From Kribbia dieselivorans NBRC 106261 (GTDB lineage Bacteria > Actinomycetota > Actinomycetes > Actinomycetales > Dermatophilaceae), in the NCBI RefSeq assembly GCF_001552435.1, contig NZ_BCRE01000034.1, positions 1-50,854 on the forward strand: 50,854 nt of DNA. Direction: 5' to 3'. Positions within the stretch are counted from its first letter, which is position 1, and every line of letters begins with the position of its first letter. The translations under genes and the position numbers were made by a program. The notes under the pieces were generated by a model. That model did not search any database, was not told the DNA's origin, and saw only the letters and a list, made by a program, of their open reading frames with translations. Positions 5,137 through 18,796 of this stretch are shown piece by piece.

Positions 5137-5583
5137 TCAGCCGACGAGGCGGCTCAGGAGTCTCGTGAGCTCGGCCGCGGGGTCGCCGGTGACGCCGCCG
5201 TGCACCGGTCCGGGCTGCACGACGGTCGAACGCGGAGCGCTGATCCACCCGAAGCGCTTCACGGCCGGACCGAGGTCGGGCAGGCCGCGTCCGGTCTCGC
5301 TGCGGCATACGGCGCAGACGATCTCCAGGGCTGCACGGACGGCGTCGAGGTCGATGTCCGGGAAGGCGGCGCGCAGGCGGGTCTCGTCGACGGTGAACGC
5401 CGCGTCGAGGAAGTCGCTCTCCTGGGAGTGCAGCACGACCCCGACATTGAGGAACTCCTCGCGGTCGACGCGTGGCACTGCGCGCAGCACGACGTACTGG
5501 TAGGGGTGACCGACGTCGGTGGACCGGGCGACGTTGGCGACCGGACGATGCTCCGTCGTGGTGCGGGCGATGATGTTGCTCAT
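5137..5583 (-). CDS. DUF3037 protein
   Basis: A 148-residue protein. The segment YQYVVLRAVPRVDREEFLNVGV and the following AAFTVDE region match my recollection of the DUF3037 family. No catalytic residues are known for it. Its ATG overlaps the TGA of the HipA-like kinase gene (ATGA, 4 nt), so the two are translationally coupled and probably act together. Because the overlap fixes the start, I am fairly sure of the N terminus. Function is unknown; the pairing with a HipA-like kinase is the main clue. Confidence 0.8.
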   Translation of the reverse strand: MSNIIARTTTEHRPVANVARSTDVGHPYQYVVLRAVPRVDREEFLNVGVVLHSQESDFLDAAFTVDETRLRAAFPDIDLDAVRAALEIVCAVCRSETGRGLPDLGPAVKRFGWISAPRSTVVQPGPVHGGVTGDPAAELTRLLSRLVG

Positions 5584-6380
5584 CGGGCACCACCGAGGTT
5601 CGTGGGCAACCAGGCCGGCGCGTGATCGAGCCGCATGAGGAGGTGCGTGACATAGGCCTCGCGCACATCGTCAGGTCCCTCGAAACCCGGGGCCGGTTCC
5701 AGCCACTCCTCTGGGACGAGATCGACGATCTCGCGGACGAGGCTCTCGGTGATCTGGCCCGACAGACGGGCGTGCGTGCCGGGCAGGTCCGCCGACAGGT
5801 CGGCGAGGACGTGCTTGGAGGCGTCGAAGGGCTGGTCGGCGAAGCGGGCGGCGTCGGCGCCGCGGGTGGGCCACATGTGGTGGAACCAGAGCGCGGCTCC
5901 GTGGTCGATTGTCCAGACGTGGCCGTGCCAGACGAGCAGGTTCGGGTTCGACCAGGTGCGGTCGACGTTGGCGGTGTACGCGTCGAGCCAGATGACCGCG
6001 TCGGCCTCGGCTGCGGTGGCCGGGGTGGAGCCGTCGTAGCCGAAGGAGCCGGGGAGGAAGTCGACGCCCAGGTTCGAGCCGATGGAGGCCGTGAGGAGGT
6101 CCTGGACCTCTTCGTCGGCCTCGTACCGGGCGATCTCGCGGCGCACGTCGATGGTGACGAGTCGCGGGACGCGAATGTCCAGGCGGCGGGCGAGTTCGCC
6201 GACGAGCACCTCGGCGACGAGGACCTTCAGGCCCTGGCCGGCGCCGCGGAACTTGACGACGTACATGCCCAGGTCATCGGCCTCGAACAGGCCGGGCATG
6301 GAGCCGCCCTCGCGCAGGGGGAGGGCAAAACGGGTGGCTCGTACCGCCTCAAGGGAGGTCGTGGCGGGAGCATCGGGCAC
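5580..6380 (-). CDS. HipA-like kinase-fold protein
   Basis: About 266 residues. The fold is suggested by MYVVKFRG (nucleotide-binding Lys), a following VLVGELARRL helix, WLDAYTANVDRTWSNPNLL (catalytic Asp/Asn loop) and WTIDHGAALWFH (metal-binding Asp), the arrangement seen in HipA-type kinases. It is shorter than full HipA and carries no HipB antitoxin neighbour; DUF3037 takes that place. An ORF extends upstream to 6464, but the GTG at 6380 is preferred because it lies 7 nt after a TACGCT box and the upstream extension is not kinase-like. The substrate is unknown. Confidence 0.75.
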   Translation of the reverse strand: MPDAPATTSLEAVRATRFALPLREGGSMPGLFEADDLGMYVVKFRGAGQGLKVLVAEVLVGELARRLDIRVPRLVTIDVRREIARYEADEEVQDLLTASIGSNLGVDFLPGSFGYDGSTPATAAEADAVIWLDAYTANVDRTWSNPNLLVWHGHVWTIDHGAALWFHHMWPTRGADAARFADQPFDASKHVLADLSADLPGTHARLSGQITESLVREIVDLVPEEWLEPAPGFEGPDDVREAYVTHLLMRLDHAPAWLPTNLGGAR

Positions 6381-6387
6381 GAGGAGC

Positions 6388-6393
6388 AGCGTA
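6388..6393 (-). promoter_or_regulatory. -10 box TACGCT for the leaderless HipA-like gene
   Basis: On the minus strand TACGCT ends 7 nt before the GTG at 6380. There is no purine-rich ribosome site, which supports a leaderless start. Confidence 0.5.
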
Positions 6394-6494
6394 TCCGAGC
6401 CGATCGGGGTGGCCCGATTTGGCGTGAGACCGGGGGCGGGTGCTACTGTTTCCCTTCGTCGCAAGGGCCCAACCGGACCCGAGCGATGCGCCCT

Positions 6495-6722: not shown

Positions 6723-6986
6723 ATGGGGCTGAACATCAAGAATGAGCGCGTGCACCGCCTCGCGCGCGAGGTCGCACGCCGGACGGGTGCCACCCAGACG
6801 GGGGCCATCGAGGACGCGCTGCAGCGCCGCCTCGATGAGTTGGAGAAGTCCGAGGGCGATGCCGCGCGGCGTGCCAGGCTCTGGCGTCTCATGGACGAGA
6901 TCGAGTCGGGGACGACGGACGCAGACCGGGCCGAGACACGGCGCGTGATGGACGAGATGTACGACGACCACGGGCTCCCTGCGTGA
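6723..6986 (+). CDS. vapB: VapB-type antitoxin
   Basis: An 87-residue, charged, mostly helical protein that begins MGLNIKNERVHRLAREVARRT, the Rv0623/PSK-type VapB DNA-binding and dimerisation region, followed by a C-terminal tail that would wrap the toxin. An AAAGGG ribosome site lies 6 nt before the ATG. The stop overlaps the GTG of the toxin gene by 4 nt. The protein should bind and neutralise the neighbouring PIN toxin and repress the promoter; candidate repeats lie just upstream. Confidence 0.88.
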   Translation: MGLNIKNERVHRLAREVARRTGATQTGAIEDALQRRLDELEKSEGDAARRARLWRLMDEIESGTTDADRAETRRVMDEMYDDHGLPA

Positions 6987-7559: not shown

Positions 7560-7745
7560 GGGAAGAGTTGGCGCGGCGGAGGTCCGCGATCGCCCCGCGA
7601 GGTGACCGCTCGACGCTCCGTTGCCTAAAGGCGAAAGATTTTTGCCTCAAGGCCTTGCCTACGGGTCGTAGATTATCTAGCGTTTGGGTGGCCACCCTGT
7701 AGCAACGGGGCTCAGGAGCGGCACTCAACGACGAAAGGTCATCCC
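7560..7745 (+). promoter_or_regulatory. Control region of the catabolic operon
   Basis: This is the end of the 370-base gap between vapC and the first SDR gene; the gap otherwise holds only the terminator and the possible remnant. It becomes AT-rich from 7621. TTGCCT occurs three times (7621, 7642, 7655), the first two followed by an AGGC half that makes small inverted repeats. TAGATTATCTA at 7669-7679 is a perfect inverted repeat, and its TAGATT can be read as -10. The mRNA leader would be about 60 nt. Confidence 0.55.
7665..7679 (+). promoter_or_regulatory. Candidate TetR operator, copy 1
   Basis: GTCGTAGATTATCTA. Its first 11 bases recur exactly, inverted, at 17057-17067 between the tetR and reductase genes, and its last 8 bases recur at 17071-17078. 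It overlaps the likely -10 box, as expected for repression. Confidence 0.5.
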
Positions 7746-8570
7746 ATGGGTCGACTCAACGGCAAGGTCGCGTTCATCACCGGGGCAGCCCGCGGGCAGG
7801 GGCGCTCACACGCCGTCCGCCTTGCGGAGGAAGGCGCGTCCATCATCGCGATGGACATCTGCGCGCAGATCCCCACGGTCTTCTACCCGATGGCCACGCC
7901 CGAGGACCTCGCCGAGACCGAGCGCCTCGTCAAGGAGGCCGGCGGCCAGATCGTCACCTCCATCGGCGACGTGCGCAACTACGAGGACGTTCAGGCCGCC
8001 CACGACCTGGGCATCGAGCGGTTCGGCAAGGTCGACATCGTCGTGCCGAACGCCGGCATCATGCCCGTCATCGACCAGGGCAATCAGCGCCAGGCCTGGC
8101 ACGACGCCATCGACGTCCTCCTCACCGGCGTCTGGCACACGCTGGACGTCAGCGTCCCCGGCATGATCGAGCGCGGCAACGGCGGGTCCATCGCGATCAC
8201 CAGCTCGGCAGCCGGCCTGACGAGCATCGGCCTGAACGTCTTCCCGGGCCAGACCGGCTACACGGCGGCCAAGCACGGCGTGGTCGGCCTGATGCGCCGC
8301 TACGCCAAGGAACTCGCCCCGCACTTCATCCGCGTCAACACGATCCACCCCACCGGCGTCAACACCCCGATGGTCGCCAACGCCGAGTACGGCGCGTTCC
8401 TGCAGGCCAACCCGGACGTCATGAACGACGAGTCCTACAAGAACCCGATGCCGGTGGAACTCATCGAGGCGGTCGACATCAGCAACGCCATCGTCTTCCT
8501 CGCCTCCGACGAGGCCCGGTACATCACCGGTGTCACCTTCCCCGTCGACGCCGGCTACAACGTCCGCTGA
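7746..8570 (+). CDS. Mycofactocin-coupled SDR-family oxidoreductase
   Basis: A 274-residue short-chain dehydrogenase. The cofactor loop TGAARGQGRSHAVRLAEEGA (about 12-31), the insert after DIC around residues 38-60 (FYPMATPEDLAET) and the tail FPVDAGYNVR are features of the mycofactocin-dependent SDR group, whose bound NAD is re-oxidised by mycofactocin rather than exchanged. The catalytic residues are Ser153/154, Tyr172 and Lys176. Known relatives oxidise alcohols such as carveol. AAAGG lies 9 nt before the ATG. It is the first gene of the catabolic operon. No mycofactocin biosynthesis gene is in the window. Confidence 0.88.
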   Translation: MGRLNGKVAFITGAARGQGRSHAVRLAEEGASIIAMDICAQIPTVFYPMATPEDLAETERLVKEAGGQIVTSIGDVRNYEDVQAAHDLGIERFGKVDIVVPNAGIMPVIDQGNQRQAWHDAIDVLLTGVWHTLDVSVPGMIERGNGGSIAITSSAAGLTSIGLNVFPGQTGYTAAKHGVVGLMRRYAKELAPHFIRVNTIHPTGVNTPMVANAEYGAFLQANPDVMNDESYKNPMPVELIEAVDISNAIVFLASDEARYITGVTFPVDAGYNVR

Positions 8571-8590
8571 CCGCAGAGAGCGAGACAACC

Positions 8591-10078
8591 ATGAGCACCA
8601 CCACCGCCACTGCAGGCGTTGAGATCACCGACCGCGAGCAGGTCTTCATCGGAGGATCGTGGGTCGAGTCCGCGGGGAACGACTGGACCGATCTCATCGA
8701 CTCCTTCACCGAACAGCCCGCCGCGCGCGTGCGCCTGGCCACCCCCGAGGACATCAACCGCGCCGTGGCTGCCGCGCGTGCCTCCTTCGACGCGGGCGTG
8801 TGGGCCAACACGCCCATCGCCGAGCGCGCCGACGTGCTCGACGCCATCGCGGACCGCCTCGAACAGCGCATCCCCGAGCTGACCCAGATCGGCGTGCTCG
8901 AGGTCGGCGTGCCGGTCTCGGTCAGCACCCAGGTCCAGCAAATGTCGGTCGGCCTGTTCCGCAACGTCGCCCAGGTCGCCCGCGAGTTCGTCACCAGCGA
9001 GGACCGGACCCGCACCGACGGCGGGGTCAGCCGCATCGTCAAGGAGCCCGTCGGCGTCGTCGGCGCGATCATCCCGTGGAACGGCCCGGTCGGCACCATG
9101 GCCTTCAAGGTCGCTCCGGCCCTGGCCGCAGGCTGCTCCGTCGTGCTCAAGACCGCCCCCGAGGCGCCGCTGTCACCGTCGGTCTTCGCCGACGTGCTCG
9201 GCGAACTCGTCGCGGAGGGGCGCATCCCCGAGGGCGTCATCAGCGTCCTGTGCGCCGACCGCGAGGCCTCCGAGGCACTCGTGACCAACCCCGACGTCGA
9301 TCACATCACCTTCACCGGCAGCACGGCGACCGGGCGGCACATCATGTCGCTGGCCGCCGACCGGGTCGCTCGGGTCTCCCTCGAACTGGGCGGCAAGTCG
9401 GCCGCGATCATCTTGGACGACGCCGACCTGAACCACGTGGCGGCGTCACTGCCGATCGGCAGCTGCATGCAGTCCGGCCAGGGCTGCGTGCTCCTGACCC
9501 GCGTCCTGGTGTCCAAGGCCCGGCACGACGAGGTGGTCGCCGCGCTCGTCCAGGCCTACGGCGCGCTGCCGATGGGTGACCCGAACCAGCCACAGTTCGT
9601 CCTCGGCCCGCTGGCGTCCAAGCGACAGTACGACCGCGTCATGGGCTACATCGACATCGCCAAGGAAGACGGCGCCTCGGTCGTCCTCGGCGGCGGCCGA
9701 CCCGAGGACCAGCCGACCGGTTTCTTTGTCGCGCCGACGCTCCTCGACAACGTCGACCCCAACGCCCGCGTCGCCCAGGAGGAGGTGTTCGGCCCGGTCG
9801 TCTCGATCATCACGTATGAGGATGAGGACGACGCCGTGGCCATCGCGAACAACTCGATCTACGGGCTCTCCGGAGCGGTGTTCACCGAGGATCTCGAGCA
9901 CGGCCTCGAGGTCGCCGGTCGCATCCGTACCGGCACGGTCAGCGTCAACTCCGCGACGATGGACTTCACCCTGCCGTTCGGTGGGTACAAGCAGTCCGGT
10001 CTGGGCCGCGAGGGCGGCCCGGAGGGTCTGGAGGAGTACTTCCAGACCAAGACGGTTCACCTGCCGATGGCCCGCTGA
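8591..10078 (+). CDS. NAD(P)-dependent aldehyde dehydrogenase
   Basis: A 495-residue aldehyde dehydrogenase of normal length. Visible are PWNGPVGTMAFKVAPALAAG (about 162-181, cofactor and oxyanion region), FTGSTATG, the general base Glu265 in LELGGKS, the nucleophile Cys299 in SGQGC, and the late motifs EEVFGPVV and PFGGYKQSGLGRE. It oxidises an aldehyde to a carboxylic acid, and its place after an alcohol dehydrogenase suggests it takes that enzyme's product. The aldehyde is not identifiable. It follows the SDR gene by 20 nt and is clearly in the same operon. Confidence 0.93.
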   Translation: MSTTTATAGVEITDREQVFIGGSWVESAGNDWTDLIDSFTEQPAARVRLATPEDINRAVAAARASFDAGVWANTPIAERADVLDAIADRLEQRIPELTQIGVLEVGVPVSVSTQVQQMSVGLFRNVAQVAREFVTSEDRTRTDGGVSRIVKEPVGVVGAIIPWNGPVGTMAFKVAPALAAGCSVVLKTAPEAPLSPSVFADVLGELVAEGRIPEGVISVLCADREASEALVTNPDVDHITFTGSTATGRHIMSLAADRVARVSLELGGKSAAIILDDADLNHVAASLPIGSCMQSGQGCVLLTRVLVSKARHDEVVAALVQAYGALPMGDPNQPQFVLGPLASKRQYDRVMGYIDIAKEDGASVVLGGGRPEDQPTGFFVAPTLLDNVDPNARVAQEEVFGPVVSIITYEDEDDAVAIANNSIYGLSGAVFTEDLEHGLEVAGRIRTGTVSVNSATMDFTLPFGGYKQSGLGREGGPEGLEEYFQTKTVHLPMAR

Positions 10079-10092
10079 GGTCAGAAGCTCCC

Positions 10093-10833
10093 ATGTCTGA
10101 TGCACGAGTGGCCGTCGTCACTGGCGGCGCGACCGGAATCGGCGCGGCGATCGCCCTTCGCCTCGCCCAGGACGGTCATGCCGTGGCGGTGAACTACGCC
10201 CACAGCGAGGCTGCCGCCGACCAGCTCGTGCACCAGATCAAGGCCACTGGCGGCCGCGCGATCAGCGTCCAGGCCGACGTGTCCGATGCCTCCCAGGCCG
10301 CCCGGTTGATCGACCGGGCGGCCGAGGGGCTCGGCGCTCCGCCAACGATCCTCATCAACAACGCCGGGCTGTTTCGCCCAGGCTCGGCCCGACGCATGCC
10401 CCCGGCCGCGTGGGACCAGATCATCGGCGTCAACCTCAACGGCGCGTTCTACTGCACCCACGCCGTACTCCCGGCGATGTACGAGAACGGCTGGGGGAGA
10501 GTCGTCTTCCTCGGCAGCCCCAGCGGCGGTCGAGCCATCTCACCGGGAACGTCGGCCTACGCCGCGGCCAAGGCGGGTCTGGTCGCCCTGACCCAGGTAT
10601 TGGCCATCGAGGCGGCCGGGCGCGGTGTCACGGTCAACACGGTGATCCCCGGCTTCGTCGACACCGCCATGACCCAGGACGGTGACCGCGAGAACACCCT
10701 GGCCAACGCCTGGCCACAGATCCCACCGTCCGCGATCGCCGACACCATCGCCCATCTGGTCAGCGACCGTGCCGCCTACGTCTCCGGCGAGCAGGTCGGA
10801 GTCTGGCTCGGCGGGCCGGGCATGACGGCATGA
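10093..10833 (+). CDS. SDR-family oxidoreductase (FabG-like)
   Basis: A 246-residue classical SDR. TGGATGIGAAIALRLAQDG binds the nucleotide, NNAG follows at about 95, and the catalytic set is Ser in GSPSGG with Tyr and Lys in SAYAAAKAG. The loop after the second strand has NYAHSE, which favours NADP over NAD. Unlike the first SDR it lacks the mycofactocin insert, so it probably exchanges free NADP(H). It may reduce or oxidise a hydroxyacyl or ring-hydroxyl intermediate. It starts 14 nt after the aldehyde dehydrogenase stop. Confidence 0.88.
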   Translation: MSDARVAVVTGGATGIGAAIALRLAQDGHAVAVNYAHSEAAADQLVHQIKATGGRAISVQADVSDASQAARLIDRAAEGLGAPPTILINNAGLFRPGSARRMPPAAWDQIIGVNLNGAFYCTHAVLPAMYENGWGRVVFLGSPSGGRAISPGTSAYAAAKAGLVALTQVLAIEAAGRGVTVNTVIPGFVDTAMTQDGDRENTLANAWPQIPPSAIADTIAHLVSDRAAYVSGEQVGVWLGGPGMTA

Positions 10834-10882
10834 GTTCACGAGTGCACGAGCACCACGAGAAACACCAACGAAAGGGTAGGTA

Positions 10883-12163
10883 GTGGCGGGATATTCGATG
10901 CTGAAGGACCTGAGGGTCATCGAGGTCGCCCAGTTGGCCCCGTCGTCGGTCGGCGGGCACCTCGCCGACCTGGGCGCGGAGGTCATCAAGGTCGAGTCCG
11001 GCCCGGTCGGCGACGGCGTGCGCGTCGGGGGTTTCCAGGCCGTCGGTGGCCCCGACGGCCCGGCTTTCATGCACCTGCGCTGGAACCGCGGCAAGAAGAG
11101 CATCTGCCTCGACCTACGCACCGACGTCGGGCGCGCCGCGTTCCTCGACCTGGCCAAGGAGGCCGACGTCGTCATCGAGGGCCTGCGCTCCGGATACCTC
11201 GAATGGCTCGGCATCGGCCCCGAGGTGCTCGCCGAGGTCAACCCGAAGCTCGTCTTCTGCGGCATCAGCGGCTACGGCGCGGGCGGCCCCTACAGTTCGC
11301 TCGGCTCCGGCGGACCGGTCTTCGACGGCTACGCCGGGCTGCGCGACGTGGAACTGCCGGACGACGCTCCGACCCGCGGCATGGCCGGCGGCACCGCCCC
11401 GACCATCGGCATGTACGCCATGGGCGCTTACGGGGCCATGGCCGTGCTCGCCGCCGTGCACGAGGCCCGCAACACCGGCCGCGGCCGCAGCGTCGAGGTC
11501 AGCGGCGTCGACGTCACCGCCAGCTGGATCCCCGACCAGATCGACGCCACCCTCAACGTCGGCCGCACAGTCCAACGGCCCGGCTGGCTGCCCGACGGGC
11601 GCCTGCCGGACTGGCCGCGCCTGGAGGCCTACCGCACCAAGGACGGCGGCGCGATCCTCTTCGTCGCCCACGTCGAGAAGTTCTGGCGCACCTTCTGCCG
11701 TGCCGTCGGCCGTGAGGAACTCGCCGACGTCGACCTGATGACGATCGACGAGGGCACCGTCGAGCGCGGCGAATATGTCTGGAGCCAACTGCGCGAGATC
11801 TTCGCCACCCGAACGCGCGCGGAGTGGATGGAGATCTTCCAACAGCACGACATCGCCGGCGGGCCGGTCAACACCGTCGCCGACCTCATCGTCGACCCGC
11901 ACTTCACGGCCCGGCGCAACACCTACCGGAGCACCGTGCGCGGCGTCGATCTGGACCTCATGGTCTCGCCGGTCCGGGCCGCGGGCGAGGAGTTCGCTCC
12001 AGCCCCGGCCCCCGAACTCGGCGCCGACACCCGCGACGTCCTGGCCACGATCGCCGGCTACGACGAGACCGCCATCCAGGCCGCCGACGCCACCCCCGCA
12101 TCCACTCAGGTCGGTACCGACGCCGACCGCACGTCGAACAACCCCGTCAAGGAGCACGCATGA
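10883..12163 (+). CDS. CaiB/BaiF class III CoA-transferase-like protein lacking the usual Asp
   Basis: A 426-residue family III CoA-transferase fold: LKDLRVIEVAQLAPSSVGGH at the N terminus, WNRGKKSICLDLRT, CGISGYGAGGPY and TGRGRSVEVSGVD. In this family a catalytic Asp lies 21 residues before the Thr of TGRG; here that position is Met177 (TIGMYAMGAYG), so the usual acyl-enzyme chemistry may be absent. It may be the non-catalytic half of a heteromeric transferase, as in BbsE/BbsF-type enzymes, or bind CoA esters only. GTG start with AAAGGG upstream. It overlaps the ligase gene by 4 nt (ATGA). Confidence 0.85.
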   Translation: MAGYSMLKDLRVIEVAQLAPSSVGGHLADLGAEVIKVESGPVGDGVRVGGFQAVGGPDGPAFMHLRWNRGKKSICLDLRTDVGRAAFLDLAKEADVVIEGLRSGYLEWLGIGPEVLAEVNPKLVFCGISGYGAGGPYSSLGSGGPVFDGYAGLRDVELPDDAPTRGMAGGTAPTIGMYAMGAYGAMAVLAAVHEARNTGRGRSVEVSGVDVTASWIPDQIDATLNVGRTVQRPGWLPDGRLPDWPRLEAYRTKDGGAILFVAHVEKFWRTFCRAVGREELADVDLMTIDEGTVERGEYVWSQLREIFATRTRAEWMEIFQQHDIAGGPVNTVADLIVDPHFTARRNTYRSTVRGVDLDLMVSPVRAAGEEFAPAPAPELGADTRDVLATIAGYDETAIQAADATPASTQVGTDADRTSNNPVKEHA

Positions 12164-13686
12164 TCATCAACGACCTCGTTCGCTACTGGGGCCGCACTCG
12201 CCCCGAGCATGAGGCCATCGTCTTCGAGGACACCGTCCAGACGTGGCAGGAGCTCGACGCCGTGTCGGACTCCCTGGCCCGCGGCCTGGCCGCCAACGGG
12301 ATCGTCAAGGGCGACCGCGTCGGCATCCTCATGCGCAACCGTCTCGAGACGGCCGCGCTCATGCTCGCCGCGCTCAAGGCCGGCGCGATCTGTGCTCCGC
12401 TGAACTTCCGCCTCGCGCCGCCCGAGCTGGCCGGCATGATCGCCGACTGCACGCCCAAGATCATCGTCGCCGAGGGGGACTTTGCCGCGCTCCTGTCGCA
12501 GGCGCGAGAGCAGTCGGAATTCGAGGTCTTCACCACCGAGCCGACCGACCACCGCCCGTACGCCGACCTGCTCGTCGAAGCGGGCGACGCTCCGCACATC
12601 GACGTCGTCGAGGACGACGTGGCCTTCATCTGCTACACCTCCGGCACGACCGGAGTGCAGAAGGGCGCGATGCTCACCCACAAGAACATCCTCTCGGTGG
12701 CCCAGTCCGCCGTGCTCGCCACCGGCCTGACCGGGCGCGACCGCGTCCTGGCCGCCGCGCCGCTGGTCTACACCGGCTCCGGCATCTCGGTCTTCATGCA
12801 GTTCGTCGTCTACCCCGGCGCCACGATGATCCTGTGCGACTTCAACCCCGACAGCGGCCTGCAGGCCATGGAGAAGCACAAGGTCACCGCCACCACCCTG
12901 GTGCCGGTCATCTACGAGCGCATGGCGATGATGCCGGACTTCGCCACCCGCGATGTGGCGCAGTTCAACTTCGCCGGTGCGGGCGGCGCTCCGGTGCGCC
13001 CCGACCTGCTCGAGACCTACCGCAACCGCGGCCTCGTGCTCACCCAGGTCTACGGCCTGACCGAGGTCGCCGGCCTGGCCACGATGATGCGCTACGAGGA
13101 CGCCGTCTCCCGCCCCGGCTTCGCCGGTCTGCCGCTGCTCGGCACGGAGTTGCGCATCGGCGAGCCCGGCAACTGGGCCGCGCCCGGCGAGGTCGGCGAG
13201 ATCCTCGTGCGTGGCCCGCACGTCATGAAGGGCTACTGGAACCGCCCCGAGGCCACCGCCGAGGTCATGGTCGACGGCTGGCTGCGCACCGGTGACCTCG
13301 GCCTGCAGGACGAGCAGGGGTTCCTCAAGCTCGTCGACCGCAGCAAGGACATGCTCATCTCCGGTGGTCTGAACGTCTACCCGGCCGAGATCGAGCGCGT
13401 CCTGGCCGGTGTCGAGGGCGTGCAGGAACTGGCCGTCATCGGCGTGCCGGACGAGACCTGGGGCGAGGTGCCGATGGTCGTCTTCAACACCCAGGGCGAC
13501 GCCTCCGAGGTCGCCGCGCGACTGCACGAGGCCGCCGCGGCGAACCTGGCCAAGTTCAAGCAGCCCAAGTCGGCCGTGGCCGTCGACGGCCCGTTGCCGC
13601 GCACGTTCTCCGGCAAGCTCGCCAAGCCGCTGCTGCGCCAGCAGTTCCCGGCGCGCCCCGACTCCGCCATCTCCCTGACCCACTGA
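12160..13686 (+). CDS. AMP-dependent acyl-CoA synthetase/ligase
   Basis: A 508-residue adenylate-forming enzyme. The P-loop YTSGTTGVQKG is at residues 159-169, QVYGLTEVAG in the middle, then GWLRTGDLG, the hinge DRSKDMLISGGLNVYPAEIE and the catalytic C-terminal Lys486 in PRTFSGKLAK. It activates a carboxylic acid with ATP and CoA. In context the acid would be the product of the aldehyde dehydrogenase. The length and the NVYPAEIE hinge resemble medium/long-chain and aryl-acid ligases; the substrate is unresolved. The start is fixed by ATGA overlap with the upstream gene. Confidence 0.92.
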   Translation: MIINDLVRYWGRTRPEHEAIVFEDTVQTWQELDAVSDSLARGLAANGIVKGDRVGILMRNRLETAALMLAALKAGAICAPLNFRLAPPELAGMIADCTPKIIVAEGDFAALLSQAREQSEFEVFTTEPTDHRPYADLLVEAGDAPHIDVVEDDVAFICYTSGTTGVQKGAMLTHKNILSVAQSAVLATGLTGRDRVLAAAPLVYTGSGISVFMQFVVYPGATMILCDFNPDSGLQAMEKHKVTATTLVPVIYERMAMMPDFATRDVAQFNFAGAGGAPVRPDLLETYRNRGLVLTQVYGLTEVAGLATMMRYEDAVSRPGFAGLPLLGTELRIGEPGNWAAPGEVGEILVRGPHVMKGYWNRPEATAEVMVDGWLRTGDLGLQDEQGFLKLVDRSKDMLISGGLNVYPAEIERVLAGVEGVQELAVIGVPDETWGEVPMVVFNTQGDASEVAARLHEAAAANLAKFKQPKSAVAVDGPLPRTFSGKLAKPLLRQQFPARPDSAISLTH

Positions 13687-13697
13687 AAGGACACGAC

Positions 13698-14870
13698 ATG
13701 GAGACCAACCAGCACGTCCTCGACCAGCTGGTCACCTACATCCGCGACAACACCACGCACCTGGCCGACTCGGAGCTCCGCGTGCCGGTGTCGAACTTCA
13801 TCGACGACGACCACGCCGCCCGCGAGCGCGCGCTCATGCGCACCAAGCCGCTCGTCGTCGCGCATCACTCCGAGCTGCCCGATGCCGGCGGCTTCATCAC
13901 CCGTGACGTGCTGGGCTCGCCGCTGCTCATCGTGCGCCAGCGCGACGGCAGCGTGCACACGAGCCTCAACGTGTGCCGCCACCGCGGTGGTCGCGTCGAG
14001 CAGGCCGAGTCGGGCAAGAAGCGCGCGTTCACGTGTCAGTACCACGGGTGGACCTATGACCGCGACGGCTCGCTGACGCACATCCCGTACTCGCAGTTCT
14101 TCGAGCCGCTCGACCGGCTCTGCCACGGTCTGTTCGCCGTGCACACCGAGGAGCGCCACGGGTTCATCTGGGTCACCCTCGAGCCGGGGGAGAACCCCAT
14201 CTCGGTCGCGGACTTTCTCGGTGCCGAGGTGGAGTCCCGGTTGAGCCAGTTCAACTACGAGAACTCCCTGCTCGTGCTCGACAAGGAGTTCACCCTGCCG
14301 GTCAACTGGAAGCTCGTCGTGGACGGTGCGGTCGACAGCCTCCACCCGAAGTTCCTCCACCCGACCGGTGTGGGTCGGCTCATCGCGACGAACACCTGCG
14401 TCGTCGACGATCTCGGGCTGCACATGCAGTCGTTCACCCCGAGGGTCAAGCTCGAGACGAAGGTCCAGGCCGGTGAGGAGAACATCGAGGGCTTCTACCG
14501 TCACGTCGGGTCGGCCGTGTTCCTGTTCCCGAACGTCAACGCCGCCATCACGCCCGACCACGTGGAGTTCTGGACGACCTGGCCGTCATTGACCACGGCC
14601 GGTGAATGCACGATCCGCATCCGCTTCCTCGCCGACCCGGACACCTACGACGAGCGCATGGCCGAGCGGCTGCGGCGTTCGTGGGAGATCCTCGAGGAGG
14701 CTGCCACGAAGGAGGACTGGCCGATGGAGGAGACGATCCAGACCAACTCCCTGGCCGTCGCCGACTCGACCTACCTGTACGGGCGCAACGAGGCGGCTCC
14801 GCAGCACCTCCACCGGGTGCTGGACGCCGAACTCGCCGCCCAGGCGGCCACCGCGGGCGCCGGTCGCTGA
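13698..14870 (+). CDS. Rieske non-haem iron oxygenase, alpha subunit
   Basis: A 390-residue ring-hydroxylating oxygenase. The Rieske 2Fe-2S ligands are Cys93 and His95 (CRHRGG) and Cys113 and His116 (CQYHGW). The mononuclear iron site has Asp213, His216 and His221 (DSLHPKFLH), matching the DxxHx4H pattern. No beta-subunit gene is present, so a homo-oligomeric enzyme of the phthalate/vanillate-oxygenase kind is likely. Electrons should come from the flavin/2Fe-2S reductase at 17104. It could hydroxylate a ring or remove a methyl group. GAAAGGA lies 8 nt before the ATG. Confidence 0.93.
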   Translation: METNQHVLDQLVTYIRDNTTHLADSELRVPVSNFIDDDHAARERALMRTKPLVVAHHSELPDAGGFITRDVLGSPLLIVRQRDGSVHTSLNVCRHRGGRVEQAESGKKRAFTCQYHGWTYDRDGSLTHIPYSQFFEPLDRLCHGLFAVHTEERHGFIWVTLEPGENPISVADFLGAEVESRLSQFNYENSLLVLDKEFTLPVNWKLVVDGAVDSLHPKFLHPTGVGRLIATNTCVVDDLGLHMQSFTPRVKLETKVQAGEENIEGFYRHVGSAVFLFPNVNAAITPDHVEFWTTWPSLTTAGECTIRIRFLADPDTYDERMAERLRRSWEILEEAATKEDWPMEETIQTNSLAVADSTYLYGRNEAAPQHLHRVLDAELAAQAATAGAGR

Positions 14871-16354
14871 TGGACAGCGGGCTGCCGCTGCGCGGACTGC
14901 GGGTGCTGGAGTTGGTCGGTGATCTGGGCGGCTCCGCCGGGCGCCTGCTCGCCGATCTCGGTGCGGACGTCGTCCGCGTCACCGATCCGAGTGCCCCGCA
15001 GCGGCAGCCCATGGCGGAGGTCAGCACCTGGCTGCGAGAGATGACCCACGCCAACAAGCGTGGCGTGACCCTGGCTGCCGGCGACGCGGACGATGAGGCG
15101 ACGCTGGTCGCCCTGATCGCCGAGGCCGACATCGTCCTCGATGGTCGGGCCGGGCAGACCGGGCACCCGGGCACGGGGGCGATGGCCGGAGCGCCGTCGG
15201 GCCCGGTTGTCGTGACGATCCGGCCCTTCGACCCAGCCGGGCCGTTGGCCGACCTGCCCGCCACGGAGCACCTGCTCAGCGCCCTGGCCGGTCTGGTCGC
15301 CCACACCGGCGCGGAGGAGGAACCGGTCCTGCCGCCGGTGGGGCTGGCCGAGGGGCTGATCGGGGCGCACGAGGCCCGAGCTGCACTCCACGGGCTGCTC
15401 ACGCTCGTCGAGACCGGCCGCGCCCCGACGGTCGACGTCATCGCCGTGGACGTGCTGGCCGCGGCGGTGGCACGCGCCGCGGAGCAGGAGAGTGTGGGCA
15501 TGGAGAGCACCGACACTCCCGCGACGATCGGCGACATCCTGCGCGAGGGCACCGGGGTGCAGTGGGAACCGGCCGAAACATTCCCCGACCTGGCGCGGCG
15601 CCCGGTGGCCGTTCCCGGGCCCGTGGCGACCGTCGACGGTGTGCCGATCGGGTGGCGGCACGGCGCTCCGCGTGGTGGTGAGCACCAAGCTGAGGTCGTG
15701 GGGGAGTGGCTCAGCGACGCCGTGGCCGCCGAGGGCCGTACCCCCTGGTCGAGGCGCGCGACGACGAGCACCCAGCCCATCACGCCTCCGTCAATCGATC
15801 GCGACCAGGTCGACCCGGCGACGCTGCGGGCGCGCAGCGGCGTGGCCGACCTGTGGCGCCGACCCGGGGTGCCGGTGCGACGCATCGACCCACCACTGGG
15901 CTATCCCGGTGATGTCATCGAGGTGCTCATCGACGTGCTCGTGTCCGCAGTGGCCCTCTCCGATCGACCCGAGTCCGACATCCGCGTGCGGAGCGTCGAT
16001 GTGGTGCGCAGCCATCTTGGCGGGCATCTCGCGGCGGAGTCCCAGATACCCGGCATCGCCGAGGCCGAGGGCAATCTCGCGGTCGGTGAGGCACCGTCGG
16101 GGGTGTTCCCGTGCGCACACGGGCGATTCTGCGTGGTGTCGATCCGAGACGACGCGGATTGGGCCGCGCTGTGTCGGGCCGTCGGGCGTCCGGAGTTGGC
16201 CGACCACCCGACCCTGGGTACGACCCCGGGGCGGTTGGCCAACCGCGCGGCCGCTGCCGGTGTGCTGACGCAGTGGTTGCTGCGCCGCGATCCAGAGGAG
16301 GCCATCGCCAGCCTGCAGGCGCACGGTGTGCCCGCCGGGCTCGTGGCCGGTTAG
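14870..16354 (+). CDS. Degenerate CaiB/BaiF CoA-transferase-like protein
   Basis: A 494-residue protein. Residues 1-200 resemble the N-terminal part of family III CoA-transferases (LRGLRVLELVGDLGGSAGRL, ANKRGVTLAAGD). Glu161 (GLAEGLIGAHEAR) aligns with the catalytic Asp. A divergent stretch follows at about 200-330, then a second transferase-like part (RRIDPPLGYPGDVIEVLID, LADHPTL, LQAHGVPAG). It ends abruptly at AGLVAG, where relatives continue for some 30 residues. It looks like a shrunken two-domain protein. The ATG overlaps the oxygenase stop (TGATG) and the stop overlaps the tetR stop. It may partner the upstream transferase-like protein. Confidence 0.75.
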   Translation: MDSGLPLRGLRVLELVGDLGGSAGRLLADLGADVVRVTDPSAPQRQPMAEVSTWLREMTHANKRGVTLAAGDADDEATLVALIAEADIVLDGRAGQTGHPGTGAMAGAPSGPVVVTIRPFDPAGPLADLPATEHLLSALAGLVAHTGAEEEPVLPPVGLAEGLIGAHEARAALHGLLTLVETGRAPTVDVIAVDVLAAAVARAAEQESVGMESTDTPATIGDILREGTGVQWEPAETFPDLARRPVAVPGPVATVDGVPIGWRHGAPRGGEHQAEVVGEWLSDAVAAEGRTPWSRRATTSTQPITPPSIDRDQVDPATLRARSGVADLWRRPGVPVRRIDPPLGYPGDVIEVLIDVLVSAVALSDRPESDIRVRSVDVVRSHLGGHLAAESQIPGIAEAEGNLAVGEAPSGVFPCAHGRFCVVSIRDDADWAALCRAVGRPELADHPTLGTTPGRLANRAAAAGVLTQWLLRRDPEEAIASLQAHGVPAGLVAG

Positions 16355-17010
16355 GCCTGGGCGGAATCCGTCGCGACCACGCGCGACGCCTCCGCCGTGG
16401 AGATCACCGCACCGCGCAGGAACGCCCGGATCGCGTCGGCGAAGAGCTCTTCCGGCGTGCGCTGGTTCGCGGTCACGGCGGCGCTCAGGTGAGGCTGCTC
16501 CTCCTCCGTCACGTTGACGAAGACCCGGGCCCGACTCGCCGGGTCCATCATCGCCTCGGCCGTGGCCGCCCCGACCGTCAACCGCTCGAGGCCGTTGAGC
16601 ACGAGCGCCAGATCCTCCGGTGGCACGCCGTGCTCGGTGAAGTAGCGCGCGGAGTGCTCGTAGGCGCGGGTCAGCGTGTCACGCGGGGGATAGCGCGACA
16701 CGATCGGAGCGGCGTTCTCGTGCCGCAGGATCGCCCGCCGGGTCTGCAGCGACGCCGCCACCGCCCACTCCTGCCAGGTGAGGTCCTCGGAGAACGGCGT
16801 GGCGTCGACCTCCTTGAGGATCGCGCGGGAGATCTCGGCGAGGAGTTCGTCCTTGTCGGCGAAGTGGTAGTACAGCGAGGGCGCGCTGACGTTCATCTTC
16901 TTCGCCAGCCGCGGCAGGCTGAACTGGTCCAGGCCCTCTTCGTCGATGAGCGCGATGGCCTGTTCGACGGCGCCTTGACGGCTGATGAGGGGGCGAGTGG
17001 GGCGAGCCAC
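16351..17010 (-). CDS. TetR-family transcriptional regulator
   Basis: About 219 residues. The N-terminal helix-turn-helix is seen as QAIALIDEEGLDQFSLPRLAKK followed by MNVSAPSLYYHFADKDELL. The rest is an all-helical ligand domain. I prefer the GTG at 17010 because GGAGAGG precedes it, although the ORF runs to 17049. It faces the reductase gene across a 93-nt intergenic region and is convergent with the CoA-transferase-like gene. It is the likely repressor of the cluster, released by a pathway compound such as a CoA ester; this is inference from location and from the shared motif. Confidence 0.88.
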   Translation of the reverse strand: MARPTRPLISRQGAVEQAIALIDEEGLDQFSLPRLAKKMNVSAPSLYYHFADKDELLAEISRAILKEVDATPFSEDLTWQEWAVAASLQTRRAILRHENAAPIVSRYPPRDTLTRAYEHSARYFTEHGVPPEDLALVLNGLERLTVGAATAEAMMDPASRARVFVNVTEEEQPHLSAAVTANQRTPEELFADAIRAFLRGAVISTAEASRVVATDSAQA

Positions 17011-17056
17011 GGGAAACGTCCTCTCCGAATGGTTGACCTGTGGTGCCAACCGATCT

Positions 17057-17078
17057 TAATCTACGACAGATAGATAAT
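17057..17078 (-). promoter_or_regulatory. Candidate TetR operator, copy 2
   Basis: On the minus strand ATTATCTA (17078-17071) is followed by GTCGTAGATTA (17067-17057). Both blocks also occur, overlapping, at 7665-7679 in front of the first SDR gene. Located here, the site could control both tetR and the divergent reductase. Confidence 0.5.
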
Positions 17079-17103
17079 GTGAGAGTCCCGGAGGAAAATC
17101 GAC

Positions 17104-18075
17104 ATGGTGGTATCCGAGAGCCTCGTGGGCAACACCGACATCATCGACGTTGACGTCGTCGATCGGCAGCAGCCCGCGCTGGATGTTGTGCGTCTCACGT
17201 TCGCGCGTGCCGACGGCGGTGAGTTCCCCGAATGGGAGCCGGGCGCGCACATCGACATCCTGCTCGACGATGACACGGTGCGGCAGTACTCGCTGTGCGG
17301 CGATCCGGCCCGCCGGGATGCGCTGACCGTGGCGGTGCTGCGCGAGCCGGCCGGGCGGGGTGGGTCGGCGCGTGTTCACGACGAGCTCGTCGAGGGTGTC
17401 CGCACGCGGCTGCGCGGGCCCCGCAATCACTTCGAGCTGGCCGCGGCGGCGCGCTACGTCTTCATTGCCGGTGGTATCGGGATCACCCCGATCATGGCCA
17501 TGCTGCGCTCCGTGGCGGCGACCGCCCCGGACGCGTGGCACCTGTACTACGGCGGCCGTTCGCAGGCCAGCATGGCCTTCGCCGACGAACTCGCCACTGA
17601 GTTCGGCGATCGGGTCACGCTCGTGCCGCAGGACGTCGCCGGTCTGCTCGACCTCGCCGGGGTCGTCGCCGACGCCGGCGACGCCGAGATCTACGCCTGT
17701 GGCCCCGAGCCGATGCTCGTCGCCTTGGAGGATGTCTGTGAACGGGCGGGGCGACCGGCCCCGCACCTCGAGCGGTTCGCGCCGAAGGAGATCGACGAGT
17801 CCGACAACCGTGACTTCGTCGTCGAGATCGCGTCGACGGGGCAGCAGTTCCCCGTCGACGCGAAGACCAGCGTCCTGGACACGCTTCTCGCCAATGGGAT
17901 CTCCATTCCGTTCTCCTGCACCGAGGGCACGTGTGGCACGTGTGAAACGGAGGTCTTGGACGGGGAGATCGAGCATCGGGACTCGATCCTCACCGAGGAT
18001 GAACAAGCCGCCGGCGACGTCATGTTCGTGTGCGTCTCGCGCTGTCGGTCCGCAGTCCTGAAACTGGATCTGTGA
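17104..18075 (+). CDS. FMN/2Fe-2S oxygenase reductase (phthalate dioxygenase reductase type)
   Basis: A 323-residue three-domain reductase: flavin-binding RQYSLCG (about 60-66), nucleotide-binding GGIGITP (123-129) and YACGPEPM (198-204), and a C-terminal plant-type 2Fe-2S domain with Cys272, Cys277, Cys280 and Cys310. The order flavin, NAD, iron-sulfur is that of VanB and phthalate dioxygenase reductase, which serve Rieske oxygenases lacking a separate ferredoxin. It should pass electrons from NAD(P)H to the oxygenase at 13698. A GGAGG site precedes the ATG at 17104. It is transcribed apart from the main operon, divergently from tetR. Confidence 0.93.
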   Translation: MVVSESLVGNTDIIDVDVVDRQQPALDVVRLTFARADGGEFPEWEPGAHIDILLDDDTVRQYSLCGDPARRDALTVAVLREPAGRGGSARVHDELVEGVRTRLRGPRNHFELAAAARYVFIAGGIGITPIMAMLRSVAATAPDAWHLYYGGRSQASMAFADELATEFGDRVTLVPQDVAGLLDLAGVVADAGDAEIYACGPEPMLVALEDVCERAGRPAPHLERFAPKEIDESDNRDFVVEIASTGQQFPVDAKTSVLDTLLANGISIPFSCTEGTCGTCETEVLDGEIEHRDSILTEDEQAAGDVMFVCVSRCRSAVLKLDL

Positions 18076-18145
18076 TCCGGCTAGGGTCGAGGTGAGTCGG
18101 CGACGCGTCGACTCGGGGAACAACGACACGAAGGACGGCACTCAC

Positions 18146-18796
18146 ATGTCTCGGATCACGGTCATCGGCGGTCACGGCAAGGTCGCACTTCGACTCATCC
18201 CGCTGCTGGTTGCCGGCGGTCACGAGGTGACCGCCTGGGTGCGCAATCGGGACCACGAGGCGGAGGTCGCCGAGAAGGGGGCCACGGTCGAGGTCGCCGA
18301 CGCCGAACTCATGGACGTGCCGGCGATGACGGCGCTGCTGCACGGCCAGGACGCCGTGGTCTGGTCCGCCGGGGCCGGGGGTGGCAACCCGCACCGCACC
18401 TTCGCCGTCGACCGCGATGCGGCCATCCGCTCGATGCAGGCGGCGATGCACGCGCAGGCTCGCCGGTACGTCATGGTGAGCTACTTCGGTGCCGGGCCGG
18501 AGCACGGTGTGCCCGAGGGCGACTCGTTCCGCGCCTACGCCGACGCCAAGGCTGCCGCCGATACGCACCTGCATGGCACCGACCTCGACTGGACGATCGT
18601 CGGGCCCAGTGGCCTGACCGACGAGCCCGGCACCGGGCGGATCACCGTGGGCGACCCGCGGGGGAGCCGGACCGTGCCCCGCGACGACGTCGCTGCGGTC
18701 ATCGCCGCCGTGCTGGCCGACGAGACGACGATCGGCCGCACGATCGAGTTCAACACCGGCGAGACGCCGATCGCCGAGGCAATCCACCTCGGCTGA
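18146..18796 (+). CDS. NAD(P)-binding protein, atypical SDR type
   Basis: A 216-residue Rossmann protein beginning MSRITVIGGHGKVALRLIPL, with an NAD(P) loop GGHGKVA, an aspartate-containing second strand region, and YVMVSYFGAG in the centre. It resembles the atypical SDR group that includes NmrA/YwnB-like flavin or biliverdin reductases. No specific substrate can be given. A GTG at 18092 is in frame, but the ATG at 18146 starts the fold and has GAAGGA 8 nt upstream. A TAGGGT box at 18082-18087 would give a leader of about 50 nt. Confidence 0.85.
   Translation: MSRITVIGGHGKVALRLIPLLVAGGHEVTAWVRNRDHEAEVAEKGATVEVADAELMDVPAMTALLHGQDAVVWSAGAGGGNPHRTFAVDRDAAIRSMQAAMHAQARRYVMVSYFGAGPEHGVPEGDSFRAYADAKAAADTHLHGTDLDWTIVGPSGLTDEPGTGRITVGDPRGSRTVPRDDVAAVIAAVLADETTIGRTIEFNTGETPIAEAIHLG

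Follow-up and report, generated by a model that had tools for sequence, protein, structure and literature searches.

To our knowledge, Rieske chemistry on coenzyme A (CoA) thioesters has been described only for ibuprofen-type pathways. In the ipf system of Sphingomonas Ibu-2, as summarised in PMC10004696, a ligase acts first, the resulting thioester is the target of the oxygenase, and the side chain is then taken off by SCP-x. In structures of mycofactocin-type short-chain dehydrogenases/reductases (SDRs) of the family TIGR03971, 3sx2 among them, the NAD lies beneath an insertion, and the family data given in PMC5264612 describe this NAD as non-exchangeable, with turnover through mycofactocin. 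Here we analyse a locus of Kribbia dieselivorans NBRC 106261 that carries genes of both kinds. The window is the 50,854-nt contig NZ_BCRE01000034.1 (C34) of an assembly of 3.29 Mb in 310 contigs, and its genes are numbered as in Table 1. The reading that we favour, with moderate confidence, is that the window operon with its TetR regulator and reductase and a second locus on contig C200 are two halves of one TetR-controlled catabolic regulon, which would turn an alcohol into an acid, the acid into a CoA thioester, and include a Rieske oxygenation. The initial annotation of the window had proposed this logic of alcohol, acid, CoA ester and oxygenase step, and the gene identities support it.

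The two halves carry a common operator sequence. Within the window, exact copies of the 11-bp word GTCGTAGATTA are limited to two, one ahead of gene 1 and one in the gap separating gene 8 from gene 9; a third place has one mismatch, while shuffles lead one to expect 0.07 places at up to one mismatch. Its presence in both promoter regions is more than chance: none of 1,946 random 185-bp stretches has more than 9 bases in common with the second, TetR-reductase promoter region. We scanned the whole assembly at up to three mismatches with the palindromic pattern TAATCTAYG-N3-CRTAGATTA (21 bp, 9-3-9), and the scan returned three places, namely C200 (no mismatch), 17057 (two) and 7655 (three). The reversed pattern returned none in the whole assembly at the same threshold. 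Since the pattern was built from the same sites, what the scan shows is that they have no other counterpart in the 3.29 Mb. At up to four mismatches the operator is absent from the fetched stretches of contigs C102, C24, C35, C36, C116, C98, C57 and C43 and from 20 shuffles of the window. Each unit of the proposed regulon thus has the same operator, rare elsewhere as judged with a pattern taken from these very sites. Gene 8 is probably the repressor of the regulon and would bind these operators. The operator common to the window and C200 also bears out the earlier view of the window genes as an entry module continued elsewhere.

Contig C200 (7,536 bp, locus L084) encodes an alpha/beta hydrolase (50% to a Rhodococcus one), an acetoacetate-CoA ligase (TIGR01217, 766.7 bits against a cut-off of 520.9) and an operon made up of a ligase gene, a Rieske gene and an acetyltransferase-like gene that is truncated where the contig stops. 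The perfect palindrome lies between the acetoacetate-CoA ligase and this operon. A ligase and a Rieske alpha subunit stand in one operon at both loci, as genes 5 and 6 and as the C200 pair. The C200 Rieske protein is 31% identical to gene 6 and, in a tree of 95 Rieske rows, groups as sister with the Nocardioides daejeonensis protein (support 100/99). No SCP-x match was found on the 7.5 kb of C200. As a separate observation, a mycothiol-synthase-like GNAT gene (L084 7058-7534; L018 8792-9787) accompanies the C200-type Rieske gene in 41 of 51 loci.

Similar sites are present in related clusters of other actinobacteria. At up to five mismatches, 47 C200-type actinobacterial loci hold 31 operator places, 19 of them within 400 bp upstream of a match to a cluster gene, 4 inside genes and 8 elsewhere; 21 control patterns give 0-9 places within 400 bp of any cluster gene. 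Counting only the 200 bp ahead of ligase or Rieske matches, there are 14 places (in 8 of the 47 loci) versus 0-5 for the 21 controls, and at up to four mismatches 10 places versus 0, 1, 4, 4, 0, 0 and 0 for seven control patterns. Operator-like sites precede the ligase match by 50-69 bp in L016, L023, L024, L026, L028 and L031; others fall in the gap separating the Rieske gene from the GNAT gene in L018, L023, L025, L026, L028 and L031. Two further operator-like sites (L053 18523-18543 and L009 6872-6892, with 3 and 4 mismatches) have no tie to a known cluster gene and possibly mark extra regulon members.

Table 1. Features of the window locus, with positions on contig NZ_BCRE01000034.1.
Feature	Position	Strand	Remarks
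Operator site 1 (TetR-type palindrome, 3 mismatches)	7655-7675		70 bp upstream of gene 1
Gene 1, mycofactocin-type SDR alcohol dehydrogenase	7746-8570	+	TIGR03971
Gene 2, NAD(P)-type aldehyde dehydrogenase (ALDH)	8591-10078	+	PF00171 full length; 69-76% homologues adjoin gene-1 homologues (11 Nocardiaceae loci)
Gene 3, classical SDR, FabG / acetoacetyl-CoA-reductase / 3-hydroxyacyl-CoA dehydrogenase-like	10093-10833	+	
Gene 4, intact CaiB/BaiF (class III) CoA-transferase	10883-12163	+	PF02515
Gene 5, AMP-forming acyl-CoA ligase	12160-13686	+	ATGA overlap with gene 4
Gene 6, Rieske non-heme iron oxygenase, alpha subunit only	13698-14870	+	
Gene 7, remnant of fused double CaiB-type CoA-transferase	14870-16354	+	
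Gene 8, TetR-family regulator	16351-17049	-	43-50% homologues in 11 Nocardiaceae loci
Operator site 2 (2 mismatches)	17057-17077		TetR-reductase intergenic region
Gene 9, phthalate-dioxygenase-reductase-type flavin/NAD/[2Fe-2S] reductase	17104-18075	+	PF00175, PF00111

Coordinates and family matches confirm the gene order and identities of the initial annotation, which had listed SDR, ALDH, SDR, CoA-transferase, ligase, Rieske oxygenase, a convergent TetR gene and a reductase, with the exception of gene 7. Genes 1-6, 8 and 9 match their own families over most of their length and have a coding-type base composition. Gene 5 starts at 12160, as the listed open reading frame (11824-13686) begins too early. 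Genes 1-7 (7746-16354, plus strand) are likely one operon, because the gaps between them are 20, 14, 49, -4, 11 and -1 nt. The earlier claim of a single operon with ATGA overlaps thus stands as to the operon; a true ATGA is present at one junction only, the other being TGATG. Among the ten proteins scanned across 7746-18796 there is no SCP-x thiolase, no ring-cleavage gene and no Rieske beta subunit or separate ferredoxin, the last two not having been sought genome-wide. Just before the operon lies a possible toxin-antitoxin neighbourhood, with DUF3037 and HipA-like kinase genes (5137-6464, minus strand) and an Rv0623-like antitoxin-type regulator (6723-6986, plus strand).

Gene 1 scores 364.5 bits against the TIGR03971 cut-off of 300, and its nearest chain by sequence in the PDB is 3sx2. 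It is by its score a clear member of the mycofactocin-type family, and from this membership its NAD is predicted to be non-exchangeable. The same genome holds mftA on contig C57 with mftB, C, D and E adjoining; mftB-E are above their cut-offs and the contig ends soon after mftE. The mycofactocin assignment of the initial annotation, which had named a genome lacking mycofactocin genes, together with free NAD use by the SDR, as the result that would speak against it, is upheld by both the score and these genes.

The remaining enzymes were characterised individually. Gene 4 covers PF02515 over positions 1-366 of 366 and keeps the Asp column that is presumably the active site. In gene 6, residues C93, H95, C113, H116, H216, H221 and D340 are invariant in 21 aligned rows, and we take these columns to be the Rieske Cys/His pairs and the 2-His-1-Asp (2-His-1-carboxylate) metal ligands. 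The gene 6 model has a mean predicted local distance difference test (pLDDT) score of 92.3 and its fold matches Rieske oxygenases. Gene 9 matches the phthalate dioxygenase reductase 2pia at 4.2e-51 and is closer to the reductase parts of two self-sufficient P450s (6kbh, 4.4e-70; 6laa, 5.3e-69). Homologues of gene 3 (57-60%) adjoin a ligase gene in L007 and L017 and an SCP-x thiolase gene in L010, and lie near both in L008.

We then asked which of these genes travel together. Relatives were collected by a pattern-led search, and our counts refer to the best 79 loci of 145 confirmed stretches. Gene 6 falls in a clade of seven rows from six genomes in two phyla, Actinomycetota and Pseudomonadota (support 99/100 in the tree of 95 Rieske rows, in which some branches, Sphingopyxis among them, are long and the tool warned of long-branch joins). 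Its other members come from Streptomyces NWU339 (75%), Sphingopyxis HIX, Solimonas terrae, Cupriavidus IDO and Pelomonas KK5 (two copies). All five of the other loci combine their gene-6 homologue with a ligase and with a homologue of gene 4 (45-66%), and the best genome-wide match to gene 4 sits in the Rieske locus in 5/5 of the other genomes of the clade. By comparison, of the 51 C200-type loci 43 have a ligase and one has gene 4, of the four loci of a second Rieske type all four have a ligase and one has gene 4 (Gordonia asplenii, 62%), and 19 loci of other Rieske types have neither. Gordonia asplenii also carries a flavin monooxygenase and a lipase-like gene near its gene 4-5 homologues; in Rhodococcus zopfii gene 4 has no match at E<=1e-40. 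All six genomes of the gene-6 clade hold a C200-type Rieske gene as well, on C200 itself in Kribbia, on another contig in NWU339 (L007) and in the same locus as the gene-6 homologue in four Pseudomonadota.

Homologues of gene 1 (80-85% identical) and gene 2 are found in 11 Nocardiaceae loci (L006, L011, L015, L018, L023, L028, L031, L038, L040, L046 and L056). The cluster is thus not isolated: relatives of genes 1 and 2 and homologues of the TetR and reductase genes belong to large clusters in Rhodococcus, Nocardia and Aldersonia, with looser kin in Gordonia and Mycobacterium. L018, annotated in full, and several others hold genes for an SCP-x thiolase, DUF35/ChsH2, an acyl-CoA dehydrogenase and an enoyl-CoA hydratase. 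The most fitting view of the window operon is that of a reduced and recombined member of this wider cluster family.

Gene 7 was listed in the initial annotation as a second CoA-transferase-like gene. It matches PF02515 in two partial pieces only. We compared it with six fused double CoA-transferases of about 780-820 amino acids (L002, L018, L030, L038, L054 and L057). Some 195 residues of domain A survive in gene 7, 44% identical over 194 columns to the Streptomyces copy, and some 175 residues of domain B, at 58% over 180 columns; it lacks most of the C-terminal half of domain A, the start of domain B and about the last 80 residues. Its model has a mean pLDDT of 56.9 and is worst at residues 206-251 and 262-346; because the alignment is thin there, the model is consistent with a remnant that does not fold and is not proof of it. 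On the alignment, gene 7 is an internally deleted, C-terminally truncated, dead remnant of a fused double CoA-transferase. In the fused proteins of about 800 residues themselves (L018 12640-15078 and homologues), the active-site column holds Glu in domain A in 6/6 and Asp in domain B in 5/6 (Glu in L030), which suggests one active and one inactive half.

The distribution of these genes points to import. Neither gene 6 nor anything as near to it as the C200 Rieske protein is found in 146 relatives at E<=1e-40. Among 395 other genomes sampled from the phylum, none has a C200-type Rieske protein (E<=1e-100), gene 4 (E<=1e-100) or gene 1 (E<=1e-110), an absence that is approximate because scoring covered just the few best candidates in each genome. 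Import of the gene set is the simplest reading. The operon looks like a mosaic, because genes 1, 2 and 9 are Nocardiaceae-like and genes 4-7 resemble the set of Streptomyces NWU339. Judged by sequence, the trio of Rieske, CoA-transferase and ligase genes crosses phyla, between Actinomycetota and Pseudomonadota. In plasmid records the Rieske protein has 950 matches, all below 60% and the first at 30.2%, and the SDR at least 5,000, the first among the matches listed being 55.8%. The Streptomyces NWU339 set (L002, 2532-21151), the nearest relative set, has its parts separated and is flanked by transposase genes (IS240-, IS110- and other DDE-type); being so interrupted and flanked, it looks mobile. 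The main paper listed under the name of this strain is a genome note on cellulolytic strains.

From these data we propose a route in which each step is a prediction. Genes 1 and 2 would oxidise a primary alcohol to the acid, which ligase gene 5 or CoA-transferase gene 4 may convert to the CoA thioester. Gene 6, with electrons from reductase gene 9, would hydroxylate the thioester as in ipf, or the acid just before activation. We place it after the ligase because the kit of the relatives (ligase, Rieske, SCP-x, DUF35 and reductase) matches the ipf logic and resembles that of dit. Gene 3 could oxidise the new hydroxyl to a ketone and so make a 3-oxo thioester for cleavage, as suggested by the ligase and SCP-x genes that adjoin its homologues. 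The ligase-Rieske pair of C200 may carry out a second oxygenation, and acetoacetate may be one product, recovered by the acetoacetate-CoA ligase. SCP-x thiolase and DUF35 would cleave the 3-oxo product in the relatives, with another thiolase as a stand-in here; one candidate is encoded on C102, where SDR-like and crotonase-like genes adjoin it. As for the substrate, an ALDH directly following gene 1 suggests a primary alcohol and the acetoacetate-CoA ligase a branched skeleton. Our guess, a tentative one, is a branched or alicyclic, isoprenoid-like primary alcohol, placed ahead of an aryl-alkanol, which we think somewhat less likely.

Different orders of the same reactions have to be weighed. 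Many monooxygenases and demethylases consist of a single-subunit Rieske protein and a phthalate-dioxygenase-reductase-type reductase, and tsaMBCD, for toluenesulfonate, encodes a Rieske protein, a reductase, an SDR and an ALDH. By analogy, gene 6 and its reductase could oxidise a methyl group to the alcohol before the dehydrogenases act, genes 1 and 2 would then give the acid, and activation would come last. In keeping with this, the nearest folds to gene 6 in VIA-align include CntA and stachydrine demethylase, at Z about 35. However, the Z scores of CntA, TPADO and salicylate 5-hydroxylase differ by no more than about 1 unit, so the fold selects neither a substrate class nor a rival. In addition, what accompanies gene 6 in the five other loci of its clade is the ligase and gene 4, whereas close homologues of genes 1 and 2 are found in none. 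We consider a Rieske step ahead of the dehydrogenases doubtful, if the strongest of the alternatives.

Somewhat less probable is an ibuprofen-like aryl-propanoate pathway for arylalkanols or arylalkanoic acids, in which the Rieske enzymes would dihydroxylate the ring of the CoA ester. The ligase, Rieske and SCP-x genes of the relatives match ipf, and PMC10004696 also mentions three Patulibacter proteins as ibuprofen-linked: an acyl-CoA synthetase, an enoyl-CoA hydratase and a Rieske protein. Against it, the scanned locus proteins include none of the beta subunit, ferredoxin and ring-cleavage gene, and neither a mycofactocin-type SDR nor an acetoacetate-CoA ligase is among the ipf genes named in that source, with ipf compared by its published description. 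The least likely alternative, a decaying imported patchwork that is losing genes and retains no complete pathway, would fit the cut-down gene 7, the SCP-x and DUF35 of the relatives not found here, the absence of gene 6 from the 146 relatives and the transposase-broken locus of Streptomyces NWU339, but genes 1-6, 8 and 9 are near full family length with coding-type composition, gene 6 keeps its metal-ligand columns and the operators are present, one of them perfect.

The two-part regulon with thioester oxygenation remains our preferred reading, and several observations weigh against it. The operator pattern was derived from the very sites that the scan returned; an earlier pattern of 15 bases, at up to three mismatches, had no match on C200, and the C200 palindrome was spotted by eye when reading upstream of the C200 operon. 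Operator site 1 has one good half only. The exact 11-bp word is absent from all fetched loci of other genomes, and a search of 18 loci for AT-rich palindromes found none. At up to five mismatches one of the seven control patterns exceeds the operator in the 47 loci (33 places versus 31), with its places mostly inside genes, and the loci with operator-like sites are close relatives and so not independent. Close homologues of gene 9, like those of genes 1 and 2, are found in 0/5 of the other gene-6 loci. For the final cleavage, the genome has one strong match to PF22691 (SCP-x), on C102, and two weak ones; the C102 thiolase is not orthologous, being unmatched by the L018 SCP-x protein at 1e-8, and DUF35 has a single marginal match inside a 1,776-residue frame on C98, which we take as spurious. 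In this assembly of many contigs the cleavage step is therefore without an assigned gene.

If the regulon reading is true, Rieske chemistry on CoA thioesters would extend to single-subunit enzymes, and mycofactocin-dependent alcohol oxidation would gain a catabolic role. A defined operator, a regulator and two oxygenase-ligase pairs would also give a handle on a widespread actinobacterial cluster family. The whole arrangement, with two single-subunit Rieske oxygenases acting in series on CoA thioesters from one alcohol, a mycofactocin entry, one TetR regulon and a trio moved between Actinomycetota and Pseudomonadota, is a speculative proposal, under which oxygenation would replace the acyl-CoA dehydrogenase and hydratase steps for substrates beyond ordinary beta-oxidation.

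Finally, we compared the locus with known systems. Open-licence literature, mostly at abstract level and with most subscription papers outside it, gave no pathway that matches gene for gene, in agreement with the remark in the initial annotation that no described pathway has exactly this set. The tert-butanol / 2-hydroxyisobutyrate pathway, considered since it also joins alcohol and aldehyde dehydrogenases with a CoA ligase, was rejected: the set named in PMC7176365 differs, with a thiamine-dependent lyase and a large/small MPD dehydrogenase, and the scanned proteins include no lyase. Tetralin degradation (thn), for which PMC6563040 gives the CaiB-type ThnH as the proposed activator of pimelate, was rejected because it has no matching gene set, and steroid degradation was rejected on the score of gene 5 against the steroid-24-oyl-CoA synthetase profile (269 bits, cut-off 750).

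The nearest clusters, the Nocardiaceae ones with a C200-type Rieske gene, resemble the window in their homologues of gene 1, gene 2, TetR and reductase, in the fused CoA-transferase and ligase that most of them have, and in similar operators in L018, L023, L028 and L031. They differ in adding GNAT and acyl-CoA dehydrogenase genes and, where the locus is long enough, SCP-x, DUF35, TLP1 and enoyl-CoA hydratase, and their Rieske protein shares no more than about 33-36% identity with gene 6. The dit cluster for abietane resin acids, as outlined in PMC12628601, likewise groups a CoA ligase, a Rieske alpha subunit, SDRs, a sterol-carrier-like protein and a thiolase, but has a beta subunit, a ferredoxin and a ring-cleavage dioxygenase, and no mycofactocin SDR is named in that account. 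The carveol-dehydrogenase-type SDRs of TIGR03971 (PMC5264612) are akin to gene 1 by its score and its relation to 3sx2. Carveol is a secondary alcohol, whereas gene 1 is coupled to an ALDH, and for this reason its substrate is more likely a primary alcohol. With ipfABDEF(HI), as described in PMC10004696, the Kribbia system has in common the CoA ligase, a proposed Rieske step on the thioester and an SCP-x step, the last seen in its relatives. It differs in its single-subunit Rieske protein with a phthalate-dioxygenase-reductase-type reductase, where ipf would call for two subunits and a ferredoxin, in having neither SCP-x nor DUF35 at either locus, and in its entry through a mycofactocin-type SDR and ALDH with a CaiB-type CoA-transferase. 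Every enzyme family involved is already known, and the novelty is the combination and the regulon.

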